A stretch of 35,194 bases of DNA from Hyphococcus sp. (GTDB taxonomy: Bacteria; Pseudomonadota; Alphaproteobacteria; Caulobacterales; Parvularculaceae). Below are positions 195-21,816 of the stretch, piece after piece (the stretch's first letter is position 1; each line of letters begins with the position of its first letter). The notes below the pieces were generated by a model that was not told the origin of the DNA, did no database searches, and saw only the letters and a program-made list of their open reading frames with translations. The stretch covers positions 1 through 35,194 of the forward strand of contig JAJFGC010000185.1 in the NCBI GenBank assembly GCA_021776345.1, given 5' to 3'. The position numbers and the translations under genes are program-made.

Positions 195-210
195 TGCAAT
201 CCTCACGCCG
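195..210 (-). promoter_or_regulatory. Candidate sigma-54 (RpoN) promoter for the Wzz-type gene
   Basis: Read on the minus strand the site is CGGCGT-GAGGA-TTGCA. GG and GC are exactly 10 bases apart, as the -24/-12 elements require, and the -12 box TTGCA is a full match to the RpoN consensus TGGCAC-N5-TTGCW. The predicted transcription start is near 184, giving a leader of about 67 bases before the ATG at 117. The -24 box is imperfect (GGC retained). Confidence 0.45.
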
Positions 211-455
211 CTCTGAGGCCGCCACGGACTGTAGAAACATGCGCATTTCATCACTAAATCCGATTTTGGGCTGCATTCCGAAGTTAGCCGCCTCAATTGC
301 CGCCCGCAACCACTAGGACAGGGCGGCGCACGGCAAATTTTGTTTGTTATTGAGCCGACGGGAGCAGTTTGCGGCGGATCGCACGTTCGTCGTCGCCGAA
401 CGGCTCTCGATCTGAACCATAGGCCTCATAATTTCTTATGATTAACAGATAGTTA

Positions 456-480
456 GGTTACTTATTCTGGAAAAGTAACC
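456..480. promoter_or_regulatory. Perfect 8-bp inverted repeat, possible enhancer/operator
   Basis: GGTTACTT and AAGTAACC form perfect 8-bp arms around a 9-base spacer. There is no T-run, so it is not a terminator. Its centre (468) is about 144 bases upstream of the start predicted from the sigma-54-like site at 586-601, which is a normal distance for an upstream activating sequence bound by a bacterial enhancer-binding protein. The bound protein is unknown. Confidence 0.45.
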
Positions 481-585
481 ATGATATAGTTAAGCCGACA
501 GCGGTGTCTTGTGCGCTGGGGCATGACCAACGCCGCCGTGGATTAATTGCTTTGGACCCGTAACCCGGCCAATAAGCGGGTAAGC

Positions 586-601
586 TGGCCCAGCCCTTGC
601 T
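586..601 (+). promoter_or_regulatory. Candidate sigma-54 (RpoN) promoter for the EPS operon
   Basis: TGGCCC-AGCCC-TTGCT matches TGGCAC-N5-TTGCW with one mismatch and exact GG-N10-GC spacing. The predicted start is near 612, about 71 bases before the ATG at 683. Sigma-54 control of this kind of locus is plausible, because exosortase-type EPS loci commonly encode a PrsK/PrsR two-component pair in which PrsR is a sigma-54 activator. Confidence 0.55.
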
Positions 602-1987: not shown

Positions 1988-4438
1988 ATGACAACGAGAT
2001 TGGATATTATGACGACGAGAGTAAAAATACCTGTGTTCGCAAAAACAACGAATTCGTCGCGAAAGCGTACATCGATTGCGGTTATCGCTGCCCTGTCCAT
2101 GCTGTCGGCGGCCTGCTCGTCTCCGGAAGAAAAAGTCGAAAAACTTTATACCAGCGGCCAAGAGTTCCTTGAAAAGGATGAAATCGGCAAAGCCAATGTT
2201 CAATTCCAGAATGTTCTGAAAATTGATGAAACGCATGTGCCGACATTGCTTGCTTTGGCGCAAATTGCGGAACGCCGGCAAAATCTGAAAGGAATGTTCG
2301 GGCTGTATCAGCGTATCGTGCGTCTCCAGCCAGATCACATCCACGCTCATGTCCAGCTTGGAAAGCTGCACCTTATTGGCAGCGATGAAACGACGGCATT
2401 GGAATTTGCAGACAAAGCGCTTGCTTTGGAGCCTGGCAATACTGAAGCGACAGCATTGAAGTCAGGCGTATTGTTGCGGCTCGGTGATGCTGTCGGCGCC
2501 GTCAAGCTTGCACGCGCCGCGATCGCGGCTGATCCGACAAATGCAGAGGCGACGACCGTATTGGCGACCGCCCGCGGCATGGAAGACGATTTTGAAGGGG
2601 CCATCGCTGAGCTGGATCGCGCCCTGGCAATTGACCCCAAGATTGCCATCCTACAATTGTTGCGTATTCGCATCTTATCGCAGCTCGACCGAGAAGAAGA
2701 CGTGTTGGACAGTTATGCTAATCTGACGGAACTATTTCCAGAAGAGCGCGCGTATCATCGGGCATATGCAAGCGAACTGATCAAACGCAAAGAGCTTGCC
2801 GCCGCCGAAACACAGCTTCGCATCGTCGTGGATATTGCGCCGGAGGACTTAGACGCCAAGCTTGATGTCGTCCGCATAGTGAATGCGCAAAATGGGATTG
2901 AGGTCGCAGAGGCGCAATTAAGAGAGTACGTAAAGGCAGAGCCGGATAACAATGACTTGATTTTCGCACTCGCCGATCTGTTGCGCGAGCAAGGCGCTTC
3001 GGACAAGGCCTTGCCCTTGTTGCAGCCGTTGACGAAGTCAGATGATCTCAGCATTGTGTCGCGGGCAAAAAACAAGCTCGCGCTTTTGTATCTCGTAAAC
3101 GGCGAACCCGACAAAGCTGAACAGCTTGTCGAGGAAATTCTTGAAGAAGATGGCAACAACACGGAAGCGTTGATCAAGCGCGCAAGTTTCCAAATAGAAC
3201 GCGAAGAATATGATGACGCGATCGCCAACTTACGAACCGCGATTAATAACGAGCCGGATTCGATCCAAGCAATGATGTTGATGTCGAGCGCTTTTGAGCG
3301 TCAGGATAATATTGACTTTGCGCGCTCTGAACTAACAAAGGCCTTTGAAACAAGCGGCAAGCGGGCGCAGGTTGCGAATGCATATGCGAAATTTCTCGCT
3401 CGCCACGGAAATTCCAGGCGCGCTGAAAATGTTCTGGTGCAGTCACTGGCCCTGTTCCCAGGAAACAGTGACAATCTGAAACTCCTCGCCGCCTTGCGTC
3501 TTGACCTGCAAGATTGGCAAGGCGCCGAAGAGGTGGCGGCAATTCTCGACACCAACAAGGCGGCCGACGCTACTGATATTGTTCGTAACATTCGCACCGT
3601 CGCCATGAGCGGGCTTGGCGATTACGATCGGCTAATCGAGGAATTGTCGCCGCAAAATAATACGCCAATGGAAAGCCGGCCATTGGCCATGCTCGTGCGC
3701 GCTTACGTTCAAGCGGAGCGGACAGACGAGGCCGAGGCCATGCTGAAAAATGTGCTGGCGTCAGATGGAGAGAACTACGCCGCGCGTATATTGCTTGCGC
3801 AGACCCACGCCGCGCAGCAAGATACGGCAGCCGCTGAAGCCGTGTTAATCGACGCTGTTGATGCAAACCCGGCGCGTGGAGAGGCTTATGAGCTGCTCTA
3901 TCGCTACTATTTGACCGGCGGCGAGCGCGACAAGGCTGTCGCCTTGATTGACAATGGGCTTGCGAAAGCTCCCGATAGTGATGCGCTGCAGTTTTTCAAA
4001 GCGGATATCCTTCTCACCTCGGGTGAGCTTGAAAGTGCGCTGGATATATATAGCGACCTGATCGACAAGCGTCCGAACGACCGCATCGTCGCAAACAATT
4101 TTGTCAGTCTTTCGAGTGATCTACGGCAGGATACGCAAAGCAAAGCGCGTGCGCTTGAGGTCGCCAAGGTGTTGTTGGATGACGAAAATCCGCTCATCCA
4201 GGACACGGTTGGCTGGGCTTACTATCGCGCAGGCCAACATGATCGCGCCGTTGAATATTTGGCAAAAGCCGCTGAGAAGGCGGAAAACAATAGCGAGATT
4301 CTTTACCATCTGGGTGCGGCGCAAATTGCAGCAGGCAAGAGCGAGGCCGGGTCGGCAAGCCTGAATAAGGCGCTGGCGGCGGGTGGTGAAAACTTCCGAT
4401 ATGAAACTGAGGTGCGAGCCCTTCTTGAACAACAATAG
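1988..4438 (+). CDS. TPR-repeat lipoprotein of EPS/exosortase-type loci (PrsT-like)
   Basis: An 816-residue protein with a basic N-terminus, a hydrophobic stretch (about 28-42) and a lipobox-like LSAAC ending at Cys43, so it is probably exported and lipidated. The rest is a long run of tetratricopeptide repeats: 34-residue helices with repeated A-x-x-L...A...P-x-N/D patterns up to residue 800. This size and layout match the PEP-CTERM-system TPR lipoprotein PrsT (usually about 900 residues), thought to be an outer-membrane or periplasmic scaffold for polysaccharide export. A strong ribosome-binding site (GGGGTGAG) precedes this ATG; a second in-frame ATG lies at 2009. The gap to the preceding gene is 45 bp, so co-transcription is likely. 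The -3 lipobox residue is Ser rather than Leu, which is tolerated but not ideal. Confidence 0.82.
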   Translation: MTTRLDIMTTRVKIPVFAKTTNSSRKRTSIAVIAALSMLSAACSSPEEKVEKLYTSGQEFLEKDEIGKANVQFQNVLKIDETHVPTLLALAQIAERRQNLKGMFGLYQRIVRLQPDHIHAHVQLGKLHLIGSDETTALEFADKALALEPGNTEATALKSGVLLRLGDAVGAVKLARAAIAADPTNAEATTVLATARGMEDDFEGAIAELDRALAIDPKIAILQLLRIRILSQLDREEDVLDSYANLTELFPEERAYHRAYASELIKRKELAAAETQLRIVVDIAPEDLDAKLDVVRIVNAQNGIEVAEAQLREYVKAEPDNNDLIFALADLLREQGASDKALPLLQPLTKSDDLSIVSRAKNKLALLYLVNGEPDKAEQLVEEILEEDGNNTEALIKRASFQIEREEYDDAIANLRTAINNEPDSIQAMMLMSSAFERQDNIDFARSELTKAFETSGKRAQVANAYAKFLARHGNSRRAENVLVQSLALFPGNSDNLKLLAALRLDLQDWQGAEEVAAILDTNKAADATDIVRNIRTVAMSGLGDYDRLIEELSPQNNTPMESRPLAMLVRAYVQAERTDEAEAMLKNVLASDGENYAARILLAQTHAAQQDTAAAEAVLIDAVDANPARGEAYELLYRYYLTGGERDKAVALIDNGLAKAPDSDALQFFKADILLTSGELESALDIYSDLIDKRPNDRIVANNFVSLSSDLRQDTQSKARALEVAKVLLDDENPLIQDTVGWAYYRAGQHDRAVEYLAKAAEKAENNSEILYHLGAAQIAAGKSEAGSASLNKALAAGGENFRYETEVRALLEQQ

Positions 4439-4473: not shown

Positions 4474-4511
4474 TGAAGCACGGGTTGGGCGCGCCGGTTT
4501 GGCAATTTGAA

Positions 4512-6629
4512 ATGTACGAACAGTTTTTTGGGCTGAGTGAAAAGCCATTTTCTATCCAACCGGACCCGTCTTTTTTATATTGGGGTCGGACGCATAGGCT
4601 TGCCTACGCCATGCTCGAATATGGCGTCCTCAATCATGCCGGGATATCCGTTATCACCGGAGAGGTCGGTTGCGGCAAGACTACTCTTATCCACCGGCTG
4701 CTTGATCAACTGTCCGACACGCATACGGTCGCGCTGCTTTCAAATATTCAGCAAGGTCGGGGCGATCTCTTAAGCTGGGTGCTGATGGGCTTTGGCGAGC
4801 CCTTTGCCGACAAAAGCCATGTCGAGCTTTTTGCTCAGCTTCAATCATTCTTTATCAGTGAATATTCCAAGGGACGCCGGGTTGTCCTTATTATTGATGA
4901 AGCGCAGAATCTGTCGACTGATATGCTGGAAGAGCTTCGGATGCTCTCCAATATCAATGCAGGCAAGGACCAACTGTTACAATTGATCCTGGTTGGGCAG
5001 CCTGAGTTGAAAGGCGTGCTGAACAAGCCGGAGCTTTTGCAGCTGGCGCAGCGTGTAGGCTCAGACTTTCACTTAACGCCTCTCAATAAAGAAGAAGTCC
5101 ACGCCTATATTGATACGCGTCTTGCGATTGCCGGCTGCCGGCGACGCGTTTTCACTGACCGTGCAATTGATCTTGTTGCTGAACAGTCAAGGGGCGTGCC
5201 GCGGGTCATCAATATTATTGCGGATACGGCTTTGGTTTATGCCTTTTCTGGGGAGGAGCTTGTCGTCGGCATTGAGACAATTCGAAATGTAGTGCGCGAC
5301 AAAACAGAGTTTGGCGTATTTGGGCTGGCGTCTGATGACGGGGCTGCGCCGCCGCTGCGACCGATGCCAGATACCGGTATTGATGCGTTTGCTGATAATT
5401 CAACCAGGCGGCCTGATCGCGATAAACGCAATGACGATCAATCTCACGGTGATACGCGTGAACCGCTTTCTTCAACGCCTCCGCGTGATGCCCCGTCACC
5501 GCGCGATGACGCCCCCGCGCCCACCGTTGCGCCGCGAGAGGTGCGTGTTGTTGCCGCCGCGGCCGATGTCAAAATGCCGGCGGCCAGGAAACTTGAGGGA
5601 GACACGCAACTCGCTACGCCGCGCGTTCAGAACGTCAAGGAAGAATCGTCCGTTTCCGGTATCGTGATCGTGGCAACGGATGCGAAGATCTCGCCCGAAG
5701 CATCTATTCGCTCGGCTGGGGACGGGCGGGCCATTGTCTTTGTCGCGGTCGGCGCAGCGCCCGAAGCCACTGCAATTGCCAAAAAAGCTGGCGCTGTTGT
5801 CGCCGAAGGGCCTGAGCGATCATTTACACCGGCGGGCCGTGCGCGAAACGCCGGCTATCGTCAGCTCAAAGAAATTGCGCCGCATCTGCAATATGTGCAG
5901 TTTATTGATTCTGATTGCGCGTTGGACCCCGACTGGATTTCGACGGCAGAGCGATTTATGGCGCGCCGCCCGGAAGTATCCATTGTTGAGGGTGCGATGG
6001 TAATGCAAGGCCGCGGGAATTCCGGCGCCCATAGAAAACACCCTGACGATGAGGGCGAAGTTCAATGCGTGAAAAGTACTGATGCATTGATCCGTGTAGA
6101 TAGTTTTGAAGCTGCCGGGGGTTTTCGCGGCGATCTCGTGACGGCGGAGACCGCTGACTTGTGTGTGCGCTTGCGCCGCCGCGGCGCCCGGATTTGGCGC
6201 CTTGATGATGACATGACCTTGTGTCGTGCGCCGTCTCGATCGCTTGGCGGCTGGTGGGCGAATAAAATTTCCCATGGGTTTGATAGCGCCTATAGCGCTT
6301 CGCTTCACGGCGGTCCGCCCGAACGACTTGGCGTCGCCGATATGGCGCTCGCCGTTATTTGGGGATTTGCATTTCCCGTTGGGGTTATCATTGCGGCTTT
6401 GCTTGGCGCGTTGATCGCCAACATGTTTGCGCCATTAACGCCGACAATTCTGGTTGTCGTTGGTATACTCGGTTTTGGCGCGGCGATTTATCTGCTTAGA
6501 ATTTTCCTGACCGCAATGCGCCGCGGCCCGTTTAAACTTTCTTCATGGCCGCTTGCATTTTCGACCGTCATCGGCCGCAGCCCCGAATTTTTGGGCGTGT
6601 GCGGGGCGTGGTTCCGTGGAAAACGCTAA
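4512..6629 (+). CDS. ExeA/XrtA-type AAA ATPase fused to a membrane-anchored GT2-like domain
   Basis: Residues 1-270 are a secretion-type AAA ATPase of the kind found beside exosortase/EPS genes. The opening MYEQFFGLSEKPF is characteristic, with Walker A GEVGCGKTT at 50-58 and Walker B VVLIIDE at 124-130. Residues about 280-380 are Pro/Asp/Arg-rich and probably disordered. Residues about 383-600 look like a compact family-2 glycosyltransferase: two short Rossmann-like strands, ARNAG (444-448) and the metal-binding-type FIDSDC (Asp466/Asp468), then ETADLCVRLRRRG. Two or more membrane helices follow (about 610-636 and 643-667). The start at 4512 is chosen by family similarity; an in-frame TTG at 4485 would add nine residues, and neither has a strong ribosome-binding site. 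Usually these two activities are separate proteins. The GT2 part is shorter than normal at its N-terminal edge, so catalytic activity is not certain. Confidence 0.83.
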   Translation: MYEQFFGLSEKPFSIQPDPSFLYWGRTHRLAYAMLEYGVLNHAGISVITGEVGCGKTTLIHRLLDQLSDTHTVALLSNIQQGRGDLLSWVLMGFGEPFADKSHVELFAQLQSFFISEYSKGRRVVLIIDEAQNLSTDMLEELRMLSNINAGKDQLLQLILVGQPELKGVLNKPELLQLAQRVGSDFHLTPLNKEEVHAYIDTRLAIAGCRRRVFTDRAIDLVAEQSRGVPRVINIIADTALVYAFSGEELVVGIETIRNVVRDKTEFGVFGLASDDGAAPPLRPMPDTGIDAFADNSTRRPDRDKRNDDQSHGDTREPLSSTPPRDAPSPRDDAPAPTVAPREVRVVAAAADVKMPAARKLEGDTQLATPRVQNVKEESSVSGIVIVATDAKISPEASIRSAGDGRAIVFVAVGAAPEATAIAKKAGAVVAEGPERSFTPAGRARNAGYRQLKEIAPHLQYVQFIDSDCALDPDWISTAERFMARRPEVSIVEGAMVMQGRGNSGAHRKHPDDEGEVQCVKSTDALIRVDSFEAAGGFRGDLVTAETADLCVRLRRRGARIWRLDDDMTLCRAPSRSLGGWWANKISHGFDSAYSASLHGGPPERLGVADMALAVIWGFAFPVGVIIAALLGALIANMFAPLTPTILVVVGILGFGAAIYLLRIFLTAMRRGPFKLSSWPLAFSTVIGRSPEFLGVCGAWFRGKR

Positions 6630-9185: not shown

Positions 9186-10013
9186 ATGAGTTATATTGAA
9201 GTCACAGATAAGCAATTTGGTTTTTTCGACGCGCTTGCGCTTCGAGAAAAAGGCTTCGATCTCAAAGATAAGTATACAGGCGCCGATCCGTTTCCACATA
9301 TTGTCATTGATGATTTTTGCTCGCCGGAAATTCTCGATGCGTGTATTGAGGCTTTTCCGCAAACGCCAGACCCTGACAGCCGCACCTTCGATCGTGATCA
9401 GGAGCGATATAAAACCAGTTTCAATCCGGACTTCATGGCGCCGCAACTACGGTCATTTTTCTACTCTCTTAATTCGCGGCCCTTCCTCCAGTTTTTAGAA
9501 AACATGACCGGTATTGAAGGGCTAATATCCGACCCTTACTTCGCCGGCGGAGGCTTTCATCAAACGAAAACGGGTGGCCATCTAAGCATACACGCCGATT
9601 TTAATTCACACCGAAAGCTGAATTTGAAGCGCAGACTAAATCTGTTGCTCTATCTCAATAAAAATTGGGAAGACGGTTATGGTGGTGAGTTAGAGTTGTG
9701 GGATACGCAGATGGCGCGCTGCGTCCAGCGCGTTGTTCCAAGCTTCAACCGCTGTGTTGTTTTTTCGACGACTGACAATAGTTATCACGGACATCCCGAT
9801 CCGATTGGACATCCGCAGGGAGAGCCGCGGCGTTCAATCGCGCTTTATTATTACACAGCGACCTGGAATGAAGCTGTACGGAAAAAAACAACACAGTTCA
9901 AGCCGCGCCCGAATTCTGGTGACAAGACTGACTGGACAATAAAACGGCGCGAATTTTTCGATAATATCATGCCGCCCATTCTTGCTCGCGCAATAAAAAA
10001 AATTCGGCGATAA
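9186..10013 (+). CDS. 2-oxoglutarate/Fe(II)-dependent dioxygenase (2OG-FeII_Oxy family)
   Basis: A 275-residue soluble protein. The double-stranded beta-helix core carries the iron ligands His136-x-Asp138 (in HLSIHADFN) and a distal His201 (NSYHGHP), followed by Arg215/Arg216 in EPRRSIALYYY, which should bind 2-oxoglutarate. The YGGELELWD segment after the first motif is typical of the prolyl-4-hydroxylase-like PF13640 group. Such enzymes hydroxylate proteins or small molecules. Lying between EPS glycosyltransferases and a secreted G8-domain protein, this one may modify a sugar precursor, an EPS protein or the neighbouring G8 protein, but the substrate cannot be read from the sequence. The 124-bp gap upstream shows no obvious promoter, so it may be read from the EPS operon. 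Confidence 0.87.
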   Translation: MSYIEVTDKQFGFFDALALREKGFDLKDKYTGADPFPHIVIDDFCSPEILDACIEAFPQTPDPDSRTFDRDQERYKTSFNPDFMAPQLRSFFYSLNSRPFLQFLENMTGIEGLISDPYFAGGGFHQTKTGGHLSIHADFNSHRKLNLKRRLNLLLYLNKNWEDGYGGELELWDTQMARCVQRVVPSFNRCVVFSTTDNSYHGHPDPIGHPQGEPRRSIALYYYTATWNEAVRKKTTQFKPRPNSGDKTDWTIKRREFFDNIMPPILARAIKKIRR

Positions 10014-10303: not shown

Positions 10304-13300
10304 GTGAGTAAAAGTATCATGAGTAGAAAGATTGGCGCGGGCGCTTCGCTTAATTCTCTTCTTTCAGTAAACATCAATGATTTTGTCGCTGCTCGTCAGG
10401 CTGGCGTGATAAAAGGGCCGCAGACAAATGGGCGACGCGCGAAAAAACGCGCTATGCAAAAGAAAATGGCGAATGCCAGTCTTTTAGCGCCATTATTGGC
10501 GGCTCAAGGGTGTCTAACGCTTGGGAAAGATGACGATATTCTCCTGGCGGATAATGTAGATGACACGCCGACGCCTGCTCAGCGCGGTGGTGGCTCTGCG
10601 GCGCCGGTCCCCGCGAACGGGCCCAGCCTGAACAATACGCCGATTGATGCAGATGTTGCGTTGGCCGCACAGGCTGATCATTTACATACAGAAACCGGAG
10701 AGGCGATCACCATTCCTGCGTCGCAACTGCAAGCGAATGACGTTCACGACAATTCCGGTCCGCTCGAAATTGTTCGCGTATTCGACGCCGTTAATGGCAC
10801 GCTTACGTTCAATGGTTCGATTATAGAATTTGTACCGGATGAGGGCTTTGAAGGTTCCGCCAGCTTTAAATATGAAGCACGTGACGCCAGCGGCGCCATC
10901 AGCGAAGCGATCGTTGAAATTCATGTCGGCGAAATGACCGAAGGCGGCGACCAACACGATGGCGAACATGGAGACGCGGGGCGCGACGACGATAATGGCG
11001 CTGATGAAGGCCAGGTGCATCCAGACGATGCGTCAAAGGCGGGAGAGCATATGGCGTTGTTCGGCCTGGTCCCGGTTGCTGAAGCAACGCATATTGCTGT
11101 CAACAATGGCTCCTGGTTTGATCCCAATACATGGGCCACGGGAGAGGTGCCGCCCGATGGCGCGAAAGTTCTGATCCCTGACGGTGTTACCGTAGACTAT
11201 GATGGCGAGAGTGCTGTTTCCTTATTTACGGTTCGTGTCGATGGCGCGTTAGAATTCGCCACCGATCAAGATACTTTTATGGAAGTTGACACATTGATTG
11301 TTTCCGCTTCTGGAGAGCTAATTATAGGAACGGCGGAAAATCCTGTTGCTGACGGCGTGGAAGCCGTTATCCAGATTGCCGATAACGGGCCGATTGACGT
11401 CGCCTGGGATCCAATGCTTCTTTCTCGCGGGGTCGTCAGTCATGGTACGGTCGAAATTCATGGCGCCGAAAAAGACACCTTCTTAAAAGTTGCGATCGAC
11501 GCAATGGCTGGTGACACATCCATTACCCTTGAAGCACCGCCTGATGGCTGGGCTGTTGGCGATAGGCTTGTGCTAACCGGTACGCACTTACCTGAGTTCG
11601 ATCGGGTTACTTTCGGGGAGACGCATGATGTTACGACTGAGGATGAGGAGTTGATCATCACAGCGATCGACGGCAACGTCATCAGCTTCGATCGCGCGTT
11701 GGAATTTAACCATGATACGCCCAGAGACGATCTCAAGGCCTATGTGGCGAACTACACCCGCAATGTCCGGGTCATCACGGAAAATGCGGATGATCTGCCT
11801 GTACATCAACGCGGTCATGCCATGTTCATGCACTCGGACGACATCGATGTACGGTATGCGGAGTTTACTGACTTAGGCCGGACAGATAAATCTGAACGGG
11901 CGTTTGATGTCGGCGATCTTGAAACAGTCGAATCTGATTCGAACGTCAAAGGCCGCTACTCACTTCACATTCATCGCGCTGGCGTCGCAGACCAGGACGA
12001 TCCGGCTATGCTTGTTGGCAATGCCGTATGGGGATCGCCAGGATGGGGTTTTGTCCACCACGATTCAAACGCCGTATTGTCGGACAACGCCGCCTATGAT
12101 GTCTTTGGCGCTGCCTTTGTCGCCGAAACCGGCAATGAGACAGGGCGATGGGTTCATAATATTGCGATCAAATCGATCGGCGTTGGCGGTTTTGGCGACG
12201 ATAATAACCCCAAAGTCGGCGCCGATGTTGAAGCGTTTGATTTGGGGCGTACGGGCGCAGGCTTTTGGTTCCAAGGACGGATTGTTGACGCTGTCGATAA
12301 TGTTGCGGCGAGCGTCCCCGGTGGGCATGGGTTTGTTTATTTCTCCCGCGGCTCACTCGAGGATGTAATCGGGGTCAATCCTCTAAACGCGCCGCAACCT
12401 GAAAGTTTGAATTACGTAGATGAAGCACGCATCTATCAGCCGGCTATTTCTCAATTTGTCGGTAACGAAACACTTGCCTCCGGCTCCGGGTTTTATGTCG
12501 TAAAACCCGGCCCGGTGCAGCAACATGATGTTCGCTCGGTCATTAACGATTTTACGGCCTGGGAAACCCGCTTTGGCGTTCATCTGGAATATACGGCGAA
12601 TTACACGCTGAAAGACATCGACCTCGTCGGCGCCGCAAATGGAATCAGCGGCATCAGCGCGGGACAAAATACATTCGATCTTGTTGTCAACAACGCAAAT
12701 ATTGAAGGCTTTGATGTCGGCGTCGACCTCGCGAAGTCGACGAATTTTCCCGACCATGATGGCAATTTCAACTATGTCTTTATTGATGTCAGCTTTGCTG
12801 ACACGGTTGAGAACTTCCGCAACCTTGATGGCCGTGACCAGATCCTAACCCAGGCGGATCTGACGCCTGGCAGGCTTGAATTCACCTCAGACATTCCTGA
12901 ATTTTCTCAATTTGGTACGCTGGAGGGTGAGTGGTCAATGAACCTTCCGGGTACGAAAATTGACAGCATTGGCGCTATTGAAGTTGGCTCCACGATCAAT
13001 CCACAAAGATATGTATGGGATTCCCTCTATGGCGCGGCAGAACAGGAAGGATACTGGACGTTGCCAGACGGCCGCGTTGTGATTGCATTCGAACGGTATT
13101 TTGCTGATCGTGCAACCGGAACGCTGACTAAAGAGGCAACCTTCATCGAGGTGCCCGGCGGTGTGGACCAGCTTATGAAAAATACGCAGACGGAACCAGA
13201 ATATCATGGTGTTCTGGACCTTGATAGTGAAGCGCCGGTTGTTGGCAATGATTTTGCCACCCTCAGCTCTGGCGAATCAATCACACTAGATGTTCTTGCC

Positions 13301-13504
13301 AATGATTTCGATCCAGACGGAGACCCGATTGCTGTTGACGGATTCATCCACCCCAAACATGGCAGCGTCCGTGTCAATGATGACGGCACGGTAACATATA
13401 CCGCAGATCCTAATTATACTGGCACGGACCATTTATGCTACTGGGTAGAAGACAACAACGGTAACTTCACCATGGGCGAAGTTTTCGTCACTGTTGAAGT
13501 CTAG
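10304..13504 (+). CDS. G8-domain / beta-helix protein with terminal cadherin-like domains, probably secreted
   Basis: A 1066-residue acidic protein. Order of parts: a basic, Ser/Asn-containing lead (1-57), a hydrophobic LLAPLLAAQGC stretch (60-70), a cadherin-like domain (about 112-208, with DVHDNSGPLEI and GFEGSASFKYEARD), a His/Asp/Glu-rich linker (213-250), a G8 domain (about 262-395, opening NNGSWFDPNTWATGEVP), a parallel beta-helix-like region (about 395-900) and a C-terminal cadherin-like/VCBS-type domain (about 970-1066, LANDFDPDGDPI and PNYTGTDHLCYWVEDNNGN). G8 plus beta-helix is the core of the CEMIP/TMEM2 hyaluronan-degrading family, and bacterial relatives are extracellular, so a polysaccharide-binding or polysaccharide-cleaving role is inferred. 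The start is GTG; ATG at 10319 is an alternative. The usual N-terminal signal peptide is absent. The 290 bp upstream show no gene. It ends three bases from convergent queG. Confidence 0.85.
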   Translation: MSKSIMSRKIGAGASLNSLLSVNINDFVAARQAGVIKGPQTNGRRAKKRAMQKKMANASLLAPLLAAQGCLTLGKDDDILLADNVDDTPTPAQRGGGSAAPVPANGPSLNNTPIDADVALAAQADHLHTETGEAITIPASQLQANDVHDNSGPLEIVRVFDAVNGTLTFNGSIIEFVPDEGFEGSASFKYEARDASGAISEAIVEIHVGEMTEGGDQHDGEHGDAGRDDDNGADEGQVHPDDASKAGEHMALFGLVPVAEATHIAVNNGSWFDPNTWATGEVPPDGAKVLIPDGVTVDYDGESAVSLFTVRVDGALEFATDQDTFMEVDTLIVSASGELIIGTAENPVADGVEAVIQIADNGPIDVAWDPMLLSRGVVSHGTVEIHGAEKDTFLKVAIDAMAGDTSITLEAPPDGWAVGDRLVLTGTHLPEFDRVTFGETHDVTTEDEELIITAIDGNVISFDRALEFNHDTPRDDLKAYVANYTRNVRVITENADDLPVHQRGHAMFMHSDDIDVRYAEFTDLGRTDKSERAFDVGDLETVESDSNVKGRYSLHIHRAGVADQDDPAMLVGNAVWGSPGWGFVHHDSNAVLSDNAAYDVFGAAFVAETGNETGRWVHNIAIKSIGVGGFGDDNNPKVGADVEAFDLGRTGAGFWFQGRIVDAVDNVAASVPGGHGFVYFSRGSLEDVIGVNPLNAPQPESLNYVDEARIYQPAISQFVGNETLASGSGFYVVKPGPVQQHDVRSVINDFTAWETRFGVHLEYTANYTLKDIDLVGAANGISGISAGQNTFDLVVNNANIEGFDVGVDLAKSTNFPDHDGNFNYVFIDVSFADTVENFRNLDGRDQILTQADLTPGRLEFTSDIPEFSQFGTLEGEWSMNLPGTKIDSIGAIEVGSTINPQRYVWDSLYGAAEQEGYWTLPDGRVVIAFERYFADRATGTLTKEATFIEVPGGVDQLMKNTQTEPEYHGVLDLDSEAPVVGNDFATLSSGESITLDVLANDFDPDGDPIAVDGFIHPKHGSVRVNDDGTVTYTADPNYTGTDHLCYWVEDNNGNFTMGEVFVTVEV

Positions 13505-15393: not shown

Positions 15394-15409
15394 CGGCAAA
15401 GCAATTGCA
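15394..15409 (+). promoter_or_regulatory. Candidate sigma-54 (RpoN) promoter for the unknown membrane-protein gene
   Basis: CGGCAA-AGCAA-TTGCA keeps the exact GG-N10-GC spacing and a full TTGCA -12 box; the -24 box matches GGCA of TGGCAC. The predicted start is near 15420, about 55 bases before the ATG at 15475. Nothing in this 159-bp gap gives a better sigma-70 promoter for the rightward gene. Confidence 0.42.
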
Positions 15410-15474
15410 GTTTCATCGTTAAGGAAGTTCGAGGCGGGCAGCTTTGAAACAGATCTGAATGGGGACGGGTGACA

Positions 15475-17115
15475 ATGGCTATGGCGGGCGAAAATCGGGA
15501 TGGTGAGGACGGTTATGCCTGGCGTCGACCAGCGCCGGTAGCGCGTCAGGCGGCCATGATGATGTATTCATGGGCGGAGCCGGGTTGGGCTTTCTTGTGG
15601 TCGCTGCTTGCGGCGGCGCCGTTTGTTCTCGCCGCGGTGCTTGCCCCGGCGCTGTTAAGTTTATCCCCGACCGTCGATATGATCGCGCCAATCGCCGAAG
15701 CGCGTTCAATCGGCGCCGGCGAGGAAACTCTTCGCACTCACGCCGCGCCTCTTTATGTCCTTTTGTTATTAGCGGCGGACGTTTTTGCCGGGGCGCCAGG
15801 GCGCATTCATCTCATGGCCAAGGCTTTGAGCGCGCTTCTTGTAATTTGTCCAATGGCGTATTTTGCCTCTTCCCGGCTAGCAGTTTTGCCAGCGGTGATC
15901 ATGACTGGCGCGTTGGCGGCCTATGTCACATCACCATTCGCGGGTCCGGTTGAATTTGCCCTCGCGCTTTTCCTCGTTAACAGTTTTTGTTTTGTTGCGG
16001 CATGCGCGAATAATGGTGTTGGCCGGGCCCGCTTTGAAGGATTGACCGCTGGCTTCGGGCTTTATGCGTTGTGGCTTTTAAGCCCTGTTTTCTCGTTGGC
16101 GGGTTTTGTGGCGCTCTCGGCGTGTCCGTTTTTGTCGGGCCGGTGTGGTTTGTCCCGTTACGCCGCGACCATTGTTGCCTTTGCCGCGCTTGCGGCGCTG
16201 GCGGAGTGGCTGGCGCCGGGCCTCAATGTTGCGCGCGCTTCCGCCGCAGGTGGCGTTTTACACATCGAAACTGCGTTTTCAAACGGCCAAGGCGCGTTTG
16301 GGTTAAGCGGTATTGTCGTCAGTACGTTGCTGGTGCTGATTTCCACCTGGGTATTTGGCGGGCGCGAGCATATCCGGGCATTGCTGACGGCGCTGGCGTT
16401 GGGCGTTACTGCCTTCATCGCGGCGCGCTTGGTTGGGGCAAACCCATTGCCGATATTCGTTCTTGTCGGGGCGATTGCAGTCTTTTCCATTTCCTCGCCA
16501 TTTTATGACGGTCTGTTCCGCGATCATGACCGGGCAAGCGTATCGGTCGCCTTTACTGGGGCGGCGCTGACCTTGTTCTGGATGCTCGCAATCGCCGGGC
16601 ATTCAGTTGGTCAGTTCAGGCTTCAATTGCAGGTGGCGAATGCTGCGCCGGAAAATATCCGCACCGAGCTTGCGTTGGTGCAGCCTGGCGGTCCAACGAT
16701 TGCGCAATGGATTGAAGAGGGGCGGTTTTCGACGCCTGAAGCCCGGGAATTCCTGGCCCTGGCCCCCGTTGATCAATCGGTAATTTTGCTTGAAGCCGCA
16801 AGCCGGGCAAAAGAAATGGCCGCGACCGGCCTTGGCGTTGCCATCCTGACGGGCGCCGATACCGCGTGTGTGCTGGTCGAAAAACGCGTCTGTCACGCAA
16901 CCGGGAATGCTGCGGCGAGCAAAGCAAATGTTGTTTTTGTCCCGCGCTTCGACCTCAACCCAGCCAGCACCGAAGTCAAGGGCAGCGCGGAGGCGCTATT
17001 GTACACGGAATTCAAATTGGTTGAACAAACCGCGTTTTGGGAAATCTGGGTACGCCGCGGCGTACCCGCGCCCAAAGGTCTATTCAGGCCGAGCGCCACC
17101 GCCTTATACCGCTAA
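15475..17115 (+). CDS. Uncharacterised polytopic membrane protein with C-terminal soluble domain
   Basis: About 546 residues. I do not recognise the family. A cytoplasmic lead of about 40 residues is followed by roughly ten or more hydrophobic helices (about residues 45-380) and then a soluble C-terminal domain of about 165 residues with a VILLEAASRAKEMAATGLGVAILTG segment and two close cysteines (near ACVLVEKRVCHATG). The many-helix-plus-C-terminal-domain shape recalls GT-C glycosyltransferases, but the diagnostic Asp motif after the first helix is not clear: LSPTVDMIAPIAEA is the nearest. The start is uncertain among GTG 15469, ATG 15475 and ATG 15481; a G-rich stretch (15461-15469) favours 15475. 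A sigma-54-like site lies upstream. It ends overlapping the convergent cysQ-like stop by four bases. A role in EPS is suggested only by position and by that promoter. Confidence 0.7.
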   Translation: MAMAGENRDGEDGYAWRRPAPVARQAAMMMYSWAEPGWAFLWSLLAAAPFVLAAVLAPALLSLSPTVDMIAPIAEARSIGAGEETLRTHAAPLYVLLLLAADVFAGAPGRIHLMAKALSALLVICPMAYFASSRLAVLPAVIMTGALAAYVTSPFAGPVEFALALFLVNSFCFVAACANNGVGRARFEGLTAGFGLYALWLLSPVFSLAGFVALSACPFLSGRCGLSRYAATIVAFAALAALAEWLAPGLNVARASAAGGVLHIETAFSNGQGAFGLSGIVVSTLLVLISTWVFGGREHIRALLTALALGVTAFIAARLVGANPLPIFVLVGAIAVFSISSPFYDGLFRDHDRASVSVAFTGAALTLFWMLAIAGHSVGQFRLQLQVANAAPENIRTELALVQPGGPTIAQWIEEGRFSTPEAREFLALAPVDQSVILLEAASRAKEMAATGLGVAILTGADTACVLVEKRVCHATGNAAASKANVVFVPRFDLNPASTEVKGSAEALLYTEFKLVEQTAFWEIWVRRGVPAPKGLFRPSATALYR

Positions 17116-17977: not shown

Positions 17978-18202
17978 TTAACGAAACGCAATAACGGTGA
18001 AGGCGGCGGTCTGTTTCGGCGTAATGCCCGTACCCGGGATAATCTCTTGAATGATCCATCCCTCGTCAGCTAATTGATTGAGCCGCTCCTGAAGGGCGGC
18101 GACGGCGGCGCGCCCGTAATCACGTTCATTTGCAAAAAGGCCAATTGGCCCCCGTTTTGCGTCCCGCCAAGTGACGTGAAAAGCTGCAAATTGTTTCGAC
18201 AT
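17978..18202 (-). CDS. Small DUF4177-like protein
   Basis: A 74-residue soluble protein starting MSKQFAAFHVTWRDAKRG. The middle and end (LQERLNQLADEGWIIQEIIPG...AFTVIAFR) follow the DUF4177 pattern: a helix ending in L-x-x-L-A-x-E-G-W followed by two beta strands. The function is unknown. The frame extends upstream to 18355, but the ATG at 18202 begins the conserved part and has an AAGG sequence upstream. A sigma-54-like site lies 42 bases upstream of this start when measured from its predicted transcription start. It may share a transcript with the cysQ-like gene, 50 bp downstream. Confidence 0.7.
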   Translation of the reverse strand: MSKQFAAFHVTWRDAKRGPIGLFANERDYGRAAVAALQERLNQLADEGWIIQEIIPGTGITPKQTAAFTVIAFR

Positions 18203-18254: not shown

Positions 18255-18270
18255 GGCAATAGCCGGGCCG
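18255..18270 (-). promoter_or_regulatory. Candidate sigma-54 (RpoN) promoter for the DUF4177-like gene
   Basis: On the minus strand the site reads CGGCCC-GGCTA-TTGCC, with exact GG-N10-GC spacing and TTGC retained. The predicted start is near 18244, 42 bases from the ATG at 18202. The -24 box differs from consensus at two positions and the final W is C, so this is the weakest of the five candidates. Confidence 0.33.
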
Positions 18271-19918: not shown

Positions 19919-21238
19919 ATGCGTGTCACCATGATTGGAGCGGGATATGTCGGCCTTGTGTCCGGCGCCTGCTTTGCGGATTTCGGCCACGAGGTCGTTT
20001 GCGTCGATAAAGACGAAAGCAAAATTGCGCGGCTCGAACGAGGCGAAATGCCGATTTACGAGCCAGGGCTGGAAGCGCTGGTTTTGGAAAATGTCAAGGC
20101 CGGACGGTTGTCTTTCAGTCGCGACCTGGCGGCGTCAGCGCCGACTTCGGACGCGGTCTTCATCGCCGTCGGGACGCCGTCGCGGCGCGGTGACGGATTT
20201 GCCGACCTTTCTTATGTCCACAGCGCTGCCGAAGAAATTGCCGCCGTAATTGAGGGCTACACCGTCATTGTCAACAAATCGACGGTGCCTGTGGGAACCG
20301 GAACCGAAGTTGAGCAGATCATCAGGAAGTTTCGTCCAGAGGCTGATTTCTCCGTTGTTTCTAATCCGGAATTTCTGCGGGAGGGCGCCGCGATCACTGA
20401 TTTTAAGCATCCCGACCGGGTCGTGGTCGGCATCGAGGAAGAGCGCGCGAAAGATGTCATGCGCGAGCTTTACCGACCACTTTATTTGAATGAAACCCCT
20501 ATGATCTTTACCAATCGCACAACGTCCGAGCTTATCAAATACGCCGCTAATGCGTTTCTGGCGACCAAGATCACTTTTATCAATGAGATGGCTGACCTGT
20601 GCGAGAAAGTTGGCGCCAATGTGCAGGAAGTTGCGAGCGGCATCGGCCTGGACGGACGGATTGGGTCTAAGTTCCTGCATGCCGGGCCAGGTTATGGCGG
20701 CTCCTGCTTCCCGAAAGACACGCTCGCGTTGGTTCGGACTGCGCAAAGCAACGGCGCCCCGACCCGCATCGTTGAGGCGGTGGTTGAGATCAACGACCAG
20801 CGCAAAAAGAAGATGGCGGACCGCGTCATTGCTGCTTGCGGAGGATCGATCGACGGCAAGACGATTGCCGTTCTTGGGCTTACTTTCAAGCCGAACACGG
20901 ACGATATGCGCGACTCACCGTCCCTTGATATCGTCCCGGCGTTGCAGCAGGCGGGCGCCACTGTGCGGGCCTATGATCCTATCGGCATGAAAGAGGCGGC
21001 GACGCTTCTCGACAATGTTGAGTATGTGGAGGGCCCTTATCAAGCGATTGAAGACGCTGACGGTGTCGTTATTATCACTGAATGGGATGAGTTCCGCGCC
21101 CTTGATATCGATCGCATCAAGGAGTTGATGGCGGCGCCGGTGATGGTGGACTTGCGCAATATTTATCGACCGAAAGAAATGATCGAGCGCGGTATCGACT
21201 ACCATTCAATCGGGCGTCCAAACGTAATCGTCGTTTAA
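19919..21238 (+). CDS. ugd: UDP-glucose 6-dehydrogenase
   Basis: A 439-residue enzyme that oxidises UDP-glucose twice with NAD+ to UDP-glucuronate. The N-terminal Rossmann motif GAGYVG (7-12), TPSRRGDG, STVPVGTG (121-128), NPEFLREG, the central helix ELIKYAANAFLATKITFINE and the catalytic Cys263 in GYGGSCFPKDT are all present, followed by the C-terminal UDP-binding domain with GLTFKPNTDDMRDSPS. The start is ATG with a GAGGA ribosome-binding site. Together with the UDP-glucuronate epimerase 0.7 kb downstream on the other strand, it should supply glucuronate and galacturonate for the EPS. Its stop overlaps the stop of the convergent DUF4174-like gene. Confidence 0.97.
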   Translation: MRVTMIGAGYVGLVSGACFADFGHEVVCVDKDESKIARLERGEMPIYEPGLEALVLENVKAGRLSFSRDLAASAPTSDAVFIAVGTPSRRGDGFADLSYVHSAAEEIAAVIEGYTVIVNKSTVPVGTGTEVEQIIRKFRPEADFSVVSNPEFLREGAAITDFKHPDRVVVGIEEERAKDVMRELYRPLYLNETPMIFTNRTTSELIKYAANAFLATKITFINEMADLCEKVGANVQEVASGIGLDGRIGSKFLHAGPGYGGSCFPKDTLALVRTAQSNGAPTRIVEAVVEINDQRKKKMADRVIAACGGSIDGKTIAVLGLTFKPNTDDMRDSPSLDIVPALQQAGATVRAYDPIGMKEAATLLDNVEYVEGPYQAIEDADGVVIITEWDEFRALDIDRIKELMAAPVMVDLRNIYRPKEMIERGIDYHSIGRPNVIVV

Positions 21239-21744
21239 GCGGCGCGCAATTTTTTCAGGATAGATGATTTTGATGCTTGCGTGCGGTCAGGGGCTGCAAT
21301 GTCGAGGCGTGCGCGTTCCAGTATGTCAACGGTGAGCATCGGCGCCTCACTGCGGAAACGTGTTTTCCCGAGCGGGTCGACATAGATCAGATAAAACCCG
21401 GTGTCAGCATCAAGAGCGTGACGCAGCAATGACGAATCGAGCCACTCGATCGGATCGCCGTTTTGACGCGGTGTGTCGTCGCCATAGACCTCAATCACCG
21501 CCACGTCTTCGCGAATCAGCGCCGGAATCGCCGGTTTCAAAAGCTTGCGCTGGATACGGCACGCCGTGTGGTTTGCCGTCGGACCGATTATGAACAGGGT
21601 ATTGCGCGGGGAGAATTTCTTGACGGGATCGGCGCGCCTCAAATTGGCGCCGAGCTCCGGTAATAAATTCGGCCGAATCGACAAAATGGCCGCGATCGTT
21701 CCGAACACCAGACAGGTGGTAATGATTAAGAAGGACAGACCCAT
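21235..21744 (-). CDS. Membrane-anchored DUF4174-like protein
   Basis: A 169-residue protein with one N-terminal membrane helix (about 3-23), then an exported or cytoplasmic alpha/beta domain. The sequence LFIIGP... REDVAVIEVYGDD ... GFYLIYVDPLGKTRFRSEAPM follows the DUF4174 pattern, a thioredoxin-like fold without catalytic cysteines in which a GKDG...R segment precedes the last helix. The function is unknown. It lies between ugd and the UDP-glucuronate epimerase gene, facing ugd, and their stop codons share the TTAA at 21235-21238. Upstream lie the best sigma-54-like promoter in the window and a perfect CtrA-type box, suggesting tight developmental or nutritional control of an otherwise obscure protein. 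Confidence 0.75.
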   Translation of the reverse strand: MGLSFLIITTCLVFGTIAAILSIRPNLLPELGANLRRADPVKKFSPRNTLFIIGPTANHTACRIQRKLLKPAIPALIREDVAVIEVYGDDTPRQNGDPIEWLDSSLLRHALDADTGFYLIYVDPLGKTRFRSEAPMLTVDILERARLDIAAPDRTQASKSSILKKLRAA

Positions 21745-21800: not shown

Positions 21801-21816
21801 TGCAATTGGCGAGCCA
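21801..21816 (-). promoter_or_regulatory. Strong candidate sigma-54 (RpoN) promoter for the DUF4174-like gene
   Basis: On the minus strand the site reads TGGCTC-GCCAA-TTGCA, one mismatch from TGGCAC-N5-TTGCW with exact GG-N10-GC spacing. The predicted start is near 21790, 46 bases before the ATG at 21744. It is the closest match to the RpoN consensus found in the window's intergenic DNA. Confidence 0.6.

Follow-up and report, generated by a model that had tools for sequence, protein, structure and literature searches.

The two 16-mers CGGCGTGAGGATTGCA (positions 195-210, minus strand) and TGGCCCAGCCCTTGCT (positions 586-601, plus strand) are, at the level that sequence can show, real divergent sigma-54 promoters. 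They lie near the start of the window, which is the whole 35,194-nucleotide stretch of Hyphococcus sp. DNA that was analyzed. The best explanation, which is very probable, is that they are divergent RpoN promoters in a conserved Marinicaulis/Parvularculaceae regulon. The activator of this regulon would not be PrsK/PrsR and is likeliest of the type of L002, an orphan NtrC-type enhancer-binding protein (EBP) encoded in the same genome. The initial annotation had proposed sigma-54 promoters for both arms of the locus; this proposal is well supported by the conservation of the sites, the presence of rpoN, the spacing controls and the same site in front of genes of the sorting system.

Both 16-mers are found exactly at their positions and on their strands. 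The sigma-54 -24/-12 consensus has GG and GC 10 b apart within a TGGCACR-N4-TTGCW-like sequence. The GG-N10-GC geometry is exact in both 16-mers, with three mismatches at 195-210 and two at 586-601 to the full consensus. The minus-strand site faces the Wzz-type gene (ATG at 117), from which it is 77 b away, and the plus-strand site faces the WecG-STAS gene (ATG at 683). Taking the C of GC as -12 gives, by arithmetic, the leader lengths of about 67 and 71 b stated earlier.

The minus arm begins with the 5’ end of a Wzz-type chain-length determinant gene (1-117, N-terminus MGDEFSLEDALIILKRRILYF), which runs off the contig. Over the part present the protein is 77% identical to Wzz of the relative G021, which is TIGR03007-like with a score of 199.5 bits against a cut-off of 278.85. 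The plus arm starts with a WecG/TagA/CpsF glycosyltransferase fused to a STAS domain (683-1942; PF03808, 6.4e-43; PF13466, 6.2e-9). It is followed, presumably in the same operon, by a PrsT-like TPR protein (1988-4438; TIGR02917, 274.5 bits, cut-off 312.2) and by an exosortase-associated ATPase with a glycosyltransferase-like C-terminal half (4485-6629; TIGR03015, 280.5 bits, cut-off 324.5). The latter protein matches PF13401, and its C-terminal half matches PF13632 weakly and also TIGR03965. Two glycosyltransferases come next. Both proteins fall short of the curated cut-offs of the PrsT and ATPase models, so the genes represent a diverged branch of that gene set. The EPS cluster also contains a 2OG-Fe(II) oxygenase gene (9186-10013, plus strand), which only some loci have (10 rows, window included). 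A 1066-aa protein (10304-13504, plus strand) in the cluster has G8, CEMIP beta-helix and cadherin/Big_9 matches and is present in the loci of relatives.

The wecG site is conserved in relatives. In the relatives search, the plus-strand site is kept in 25 of 30 loci (window included), and the five loci lacking it are the least similar. A MAFFT alignment, seen without the middle part of its output, shows a kept TGGC..TTGCT block in intergenic DNA that is otherwise little conserved. In named genomes, 41 loci were detected, belonging to Marinicaulis, Parvularcula, other Parvularculaceae, Henriciella, other Hyphomonadaceae and a few others, of which 29 have the site (30 of 42 with the window, counted as exact GGC-N7-TTGC upstream of the WecG-STAS gene). 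The exact pattern is found in all 29 loci of the Marinicaulis/Parvularculaceae type, a subset drawn after it was seen where the sites were. The remaining 13 loci (L198-L200, L202, L204-L212) include Henriciella, other Hyphomonadaceae, Parvularcula oceani and others; the site is absent in 12 of these less similar loci, and L212 has one of another form. Spacers of N3-N6 and N8-N12 match upstream of wecG in only 0-3 of the 29 loci.

The same pattern precedes further genes. Of 26 non-duplicate loci, 24 have it upstream of Wzz (L053 and L059 lack it; 0-6 at other spacings). It precedes XrtD in 12 of 12 relatives, with 0-2 at other spacings, and this count does not include the XrtD copy of the Hyphococcus sp. 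genome. The pattern is also exact upstream of the 548-aa protein gene (unk548) in 20 of 20 orthologs, with 0-5 at other spacings and 0 of 20 for the reversed pattern. In the stretches of one relative, G022, sites are present for all four genes (wecG, XrtD, Wzz and the 548-aa gene). Control genes seldom have an N7 site: TyrK 2/19, UGD 0/18, GST 0/19, QueG 0/21, G8 0/11 and WcaJ 1/18. Opposite-strand counts are high for GST (17/19) and GT356 (5/5), which is consistent with promoters of divergent neighbours. Duplicate genomes were dropped from the XrtD, Wzz, TyrK and GT356 counts, and the wecG counts keep all 41 loci and the window. All of these counts are over related sequences rather than independent events, start codons in relatives are extrapolated from tblastn alignments, and the information content of the core is 2.0 by construction since exact matches were pre-selected.

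The initial annotation counted five intergenic GGC-N7-TTGC sites, all pointing at a nearby start codon. The gene list leaves six such sites, and an automatic ORF mask leaves seven. Of the six, four have a start codon at 56-81 b; the other two, both in the gap between 18059 and 18398, are 195 and 236 b away. The conserved site of the 548-aa gene is CGGCAAAGCAATTGCA (15394-15409, plus strand). The gene (15469-17115, plus strand) is conserved with the locus and is a predicted RpoN target; it encodes a protein whose N-terminal half is hydrophobic by eye and which had no match at E 0.001 in searches of Pfam and NCBIfam. The site TGGCTCGCCAATTGCA (21801-21816, minus strand) has one mismatch to TGGCACGN4TTGCW and is a probable sigma-54 promoter of a 169-aa gene (21235-21744). 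A site at any position precedes 8 of 16 orthologs of this gene (reversed-pattern control 2/16), namely in the window, in four of its nearest relatives (at -56) and in three others at other positions. A possible sigma-54 site, CGGCCCGGCTATTGCC (18255-18270, minus strand), precedes an inositol-monophosphatase gene. The orthologs have a site in 9 of 18 cases (reversed-pattern control 1/18), with the same sequence type in the window and the five nearest relatives; the site is weaker because it is 195 b from the start codon. The WcaJ-side site at 18146-18161 has a counterpart in only 3 of 18 orthologs and was taken as chance. The additional sites are thus of three kinds: one kept throughout, two kept in part of the genus and one not conserved.

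In relatives, the exosortase at the locus is of the XrtD (VPLPA-CTERM) type. The Hyphococcus sp. genome encodes three exosortase-family proteins (L111, L112 and L113, on contigs C282, C166 and C118), of which one is an XrtD and one an XrtA over cut-off and the third is weaker. XrtD is on contig C282 (TIGR04152, 491.6 bits, cut-off 400), and a check of its upstream region found no site. In the relatives G021 and G004 an XrtD gene over cut-off lies between wecG and Wzz, and in the relatives examined the XrtD site is 82-125 b before the extrapolated start. In the window, where the contig ends within the minus arm, XrtD is not between wecG and Wzz. Among the nine matches listed for TIGR03370 (VPLPA-CTERM) in the Hyphococcus sp. 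genome, four are over cut-off and six were read as real proteins. A site lies 87 b ahead of the first start codon in one of these six genes and 55 b ahead of it in another; the remaining four have none. In G021 the gene of a 217-aa protein also lies between wecG and Wzz. Its C-terminus is VPLPA-CTERM-like by eye, the protein has no NCBIfam match, and whether its homologs have a site varies from genome to genome.

A check for rpoN found the gene once in the Hyphococcus sp. genome (TIGR02395, 437 bits, cut-off 277). It is present in 57 of 60 genomes and in all 47 with at least 90% completeness and at most 5% contamination; the three genomes without a match (G006, G019, G034) are all less than 85% complete. 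The Hyphococcus sp. genome has five strong EBPs, some of them cut by contig ends: the NtrC-type orphan L002, FlbD, a receiver-less protein (L004, contig C225), PspF and NtrX. The relative G004 is a single contig of 3,472,649 b, is 99% complete and carries the locus. Its EBPs at E<=1e-20 are four, of the L002 type, the L004 type, NtrX and a divergent PspF-like protein. All four NtrX-type proteins are without a GAFTGA loop.

One way to account for the sites would be that a loose pattern matches by chance in a genome of moderate GC content. The window has 29 matches to GGC-N7-TTGC, where shuffles predict 11.6, and 22 of the 29 are coding. Since the pattern is frequent in coding DNA, it is not by itself specific for promoters. 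Genome-wide there are 1369 matches in 3.64 Mb (772 for the reversed control). At this rate, 3.4 kb should contain about 1.3 matches, with P(>=7) = 0.0004, and the earlier figure of 0.3 by chance was an underestimate. The stricter YGGC-N7-TTGCW has four intergenic and no coding matches in the window. In 16 other stretches of the genome (285 kb) it has none in 29.8 kb of intergenic and 19 in 255 kb of coding DNA (P = 0.0001), these background stretches having been picked by contig number and earlier matches, not at random, and with L114-L117 left out. By this comparison of intergenic with coding DNA, the strict form does better than the loose one. A genome scan with TGGCACGN4TTGCW at up to one mismatch gave 20 matches, mostly coding, against 18 for the reversed control; there is no enrichment, and definition of the regulon by such a scan was dropped. 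Against chance stands the conservation at 29/29, 24/26, 20/20 and 12/12 together with the spacing controls. These comparisons already rule out the chance reading for the sites of wecG, Wzz, unk548 and XrtD, and overall it has a negligible probability. It is also highly improbable that the 16-mers are sites for another transcription factor, or another promoter type that resembles the -24/-12 consensus. Each promoter family does keep additional bases outside the core (TGGCC mostly, CGGCA, CGGCGCC), and the searches for an enhancer found none. However, a spacing of 7 (GG-N10-GC) is the only one conserved, the invariant bases are the sigma-54 core, and the sites keep roughly the same orientation and distance to the start. 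As a positive control, a one-mismatch form (TGGCACGGCATTCGCA) lies in the same genome upstream of a gene whose sequence is PspA-like.

Which protein would activate these promoters is a separate matter. The initial annotation favored PrsK/PrsR-type regulation, and the canonical PEP-CTERM control would have PrsK phosphorylate PrsR, which binds a TTTACA-ending box about 63 nt upstream and drives the promoters. The sigma-54 motif, the mean distance of 71 nt to the start and the PrsT of the published system (PMC1569441) fit the layout, and the PrsT-like and exosortase-associated ATPase genes sit in the plus-arm operon. The five-letter parts TTTAC or TTACA also occur in 6 of 19 minus-arm upstream regions. 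Against this, no PrsR (TIGR02915) exceeds the cut-off of 502.6 in 36 genomes, the Hyphococcus sp. genome included (best 380 bits; 382.5 bits for its L002 protein). This set contains 18 genomes with the locus, among them the single-contig G004; the carriers G022, G024-G027, G029 and G032 were left out of it. No PrsK (TIGR02916) is over cut-off in the Hyphococcus sp. genome (best 92 bits against 300), and no EBP was found in the 34 locus stretches or in the window. The full TTTACA, the published 3’ hexamer of the PrsR box and the only part of it that was used, is 25-100 nt upstream of the sigma-54 motif in just 1 of 66 upstream regions. The PrsK/PrsR mechanism is thus not supported and appears very unlikely. 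Activation of true sigma-54 promoters by FlbD, PspF or L004, and not by the L002 type, has a better though still minor chance of being correct. All three occur in the Hyphococcus sp. genome with GAFTGA loops, and PspF-like proteins are in all four genomes compared for EBPs. However, FlbD is absent from G004, and the PspF-like protein of G004 (L228) has 51% identity to PspF of the Hyphococcus sp. genome and a degenerate GAFTGA loop. The L004 type is in only 8 of 36 genomes (the Hyphococcus sp. genome included) and is absent in the locus carriers G012 and G021, and L004 was rejected as a dedicated activator.

After this elimination, the locus carriers share L002-type and PspF-like proteins, and the L002-type orphan is the likeliest activator. 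It has 80-83% identity in G004, G012 and G021 and a GSFTGA loop. All 29 relatives tested have it, at 57-86% identity over nearly the full length; this test left out six of the 36 genomes of the PrsR search, one of which (G012) was found separately to have it. In total the protein is present in the Hyphococcus sp. genome and all 30 relatives checked by alignment. In G004 and G021 its gene adjoins a hydrolase gene, transhydrogenase genes lie close by, and none of the eight neighbours tested in these two genomes is a kinase. The genomes G020 and G015, without a WecG-STAS match, contain the L002 type as well; therefore, the argument for it rests on elimination, not on co-variation. The protein is possibly TacA of the Caulobacterales. 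Of the four EBPs of Caulobacter, two, FlbD and TacA, have retained GAFTGA (PMC10274813).

Searches for a shared enhancer gave nothing consistent among the palindromes and dyads of 64 upstream regions. An exact inverted repeat between the two promoters (456-480, GGTTACTT-N9-AAGTAACC) was considered as an activator site and was not found in relatives. Upstream of wecG the best palindrome or dyad is in 2 of 25 regions, with shuffles reaching 3. The best minus-arm word, GGCCCGGGCC (4/19; shuffles 1-2), is the wecG promoter itself. The best unk548 palindromes (5/20; shuffles 2-3) are GC-rich words, and the unk548 dyads (10/16; shuffles 5-7) come from upstream regions that probably include coding sequence of the neighbouring GST gene. 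An EM motif search in 23 wecG upstream regions gave a TTAACCAT-like motif with a score of 67 against 46-53 in shuffles, and RTTAAY hexamers looked enriched in these regions. The signal was inconsistent in same-genome comparisons and was dropped: wecG and unk548 scored high, XrtD and Wzz low, and the G8 and unk169 controls scored high as well. The near-identical loci L102-L105 were dropped from the same-genome motif comparison.

Under the preferred reading of RpoN promoters with an L002-type activator, one promoter would fire into the Wzz arm and the other into the WecG-STAS/PrsT/ATPase/glycosyltransferase arm of the exosortase-linked EPS locus. The small regulon would also cover the 548-aa membrane protein, some VPLPA-CTERM substrates and, in relatives, the XrtD exosortase. 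RpoN-polymerase would sit closed on the promoters until an ATP-driven EBP opens them. Transcription that is RpoN-dependent and co-activated in this way would switch on polymer synthesis and protein sorting together. The activator would likeliest be the orphan NtrC-type protein with the GSFTGA loop, possibly TacA. The wider proposal is that an RpoN regulon couples XrtD, VPLPA-CTERM substrates and EPS polymerisation without PrsK/PrsR, with a housekeeping TacA-like orphan EBP in control; this is tentative and is held with somewhat less than even confidence. If such an EBP is in control, this would link the cell-development pathway of the Caulobacterales with sorting and EPS output. The sigma-54 promoters are kept across a genus-level group in which PrsR over cut-off was not found and the box is nearly absent; therefore, the control logic seems separable from the textbook activator. 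The locus also gives a short list of targets and a cultured species, Marinicaulis flavus SY-3-19, for the question of how exosortase and EPS genes are switched on.

Haft et al. (2006, PMC1569441) predicted sigma-54 motifs in front of PEP-CTERM genes and used phylogenetic profiles to link RpoN control of exosortase systems to PrsK/PrsR. In that work, PrsR motif 1 ends in TTTACA and is 32-92 nt upstream of the sigma-54 motif. The PEP-CTERM/EpsH regulon described there resembles the present one in its -24/-12 motif, at a mean of 71 nt before the starts of exosortase-system genes, and in the nearby PrsT-like TPR protein and EPS glycosyltransferases. It differs in that here PrsR (36 genomes) and PrsK (Hyphococcus sp. 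genome) are not over cut-off, the hexamer is nearly missing (1/66) and the exosortase of the locus in relatives is of the XrtD (VPLPA-CTERM) type. The sites here are mainly on core EPS and exosortase genes, whereas those of the PEP-CTERM/EpsH regulon are mainly on substrates.

For pepA of Aquincola tertiaricarbonis RN12, a -24/-12 promoter was mapped by primer extension and expression depends on rpoN1 (PMC9850573). This is likewise a -24/-12 promoter in an exosortase system; unlike here, the gene codes for a PEP-CTERM substrate and its host carries PrsK/PrsR. The downstream prsT of Aquincola seemed unaffected by rpoN1, whereas here the prsT-like gene follows the RpoN-type promoter of wecG. TacA of Caulobacter, which is in the same order, is an EBP with an intact sigma-54-interacting loop and belongs to the class of the candidate activator (PMC10274813). 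It is reported there to control stalk genes, and the orthology of the L002 type to TacA is putative. A report of RpoN control of an XrtD/VPLPA-CTERM system was not found in the literature searched. RpoN control of PEP-CTERM exosortase systems is thus already known, and the system described here would be a variant of it, an XrtD exosortase/EPS regulon that appears to work without PrsK/PrsR.
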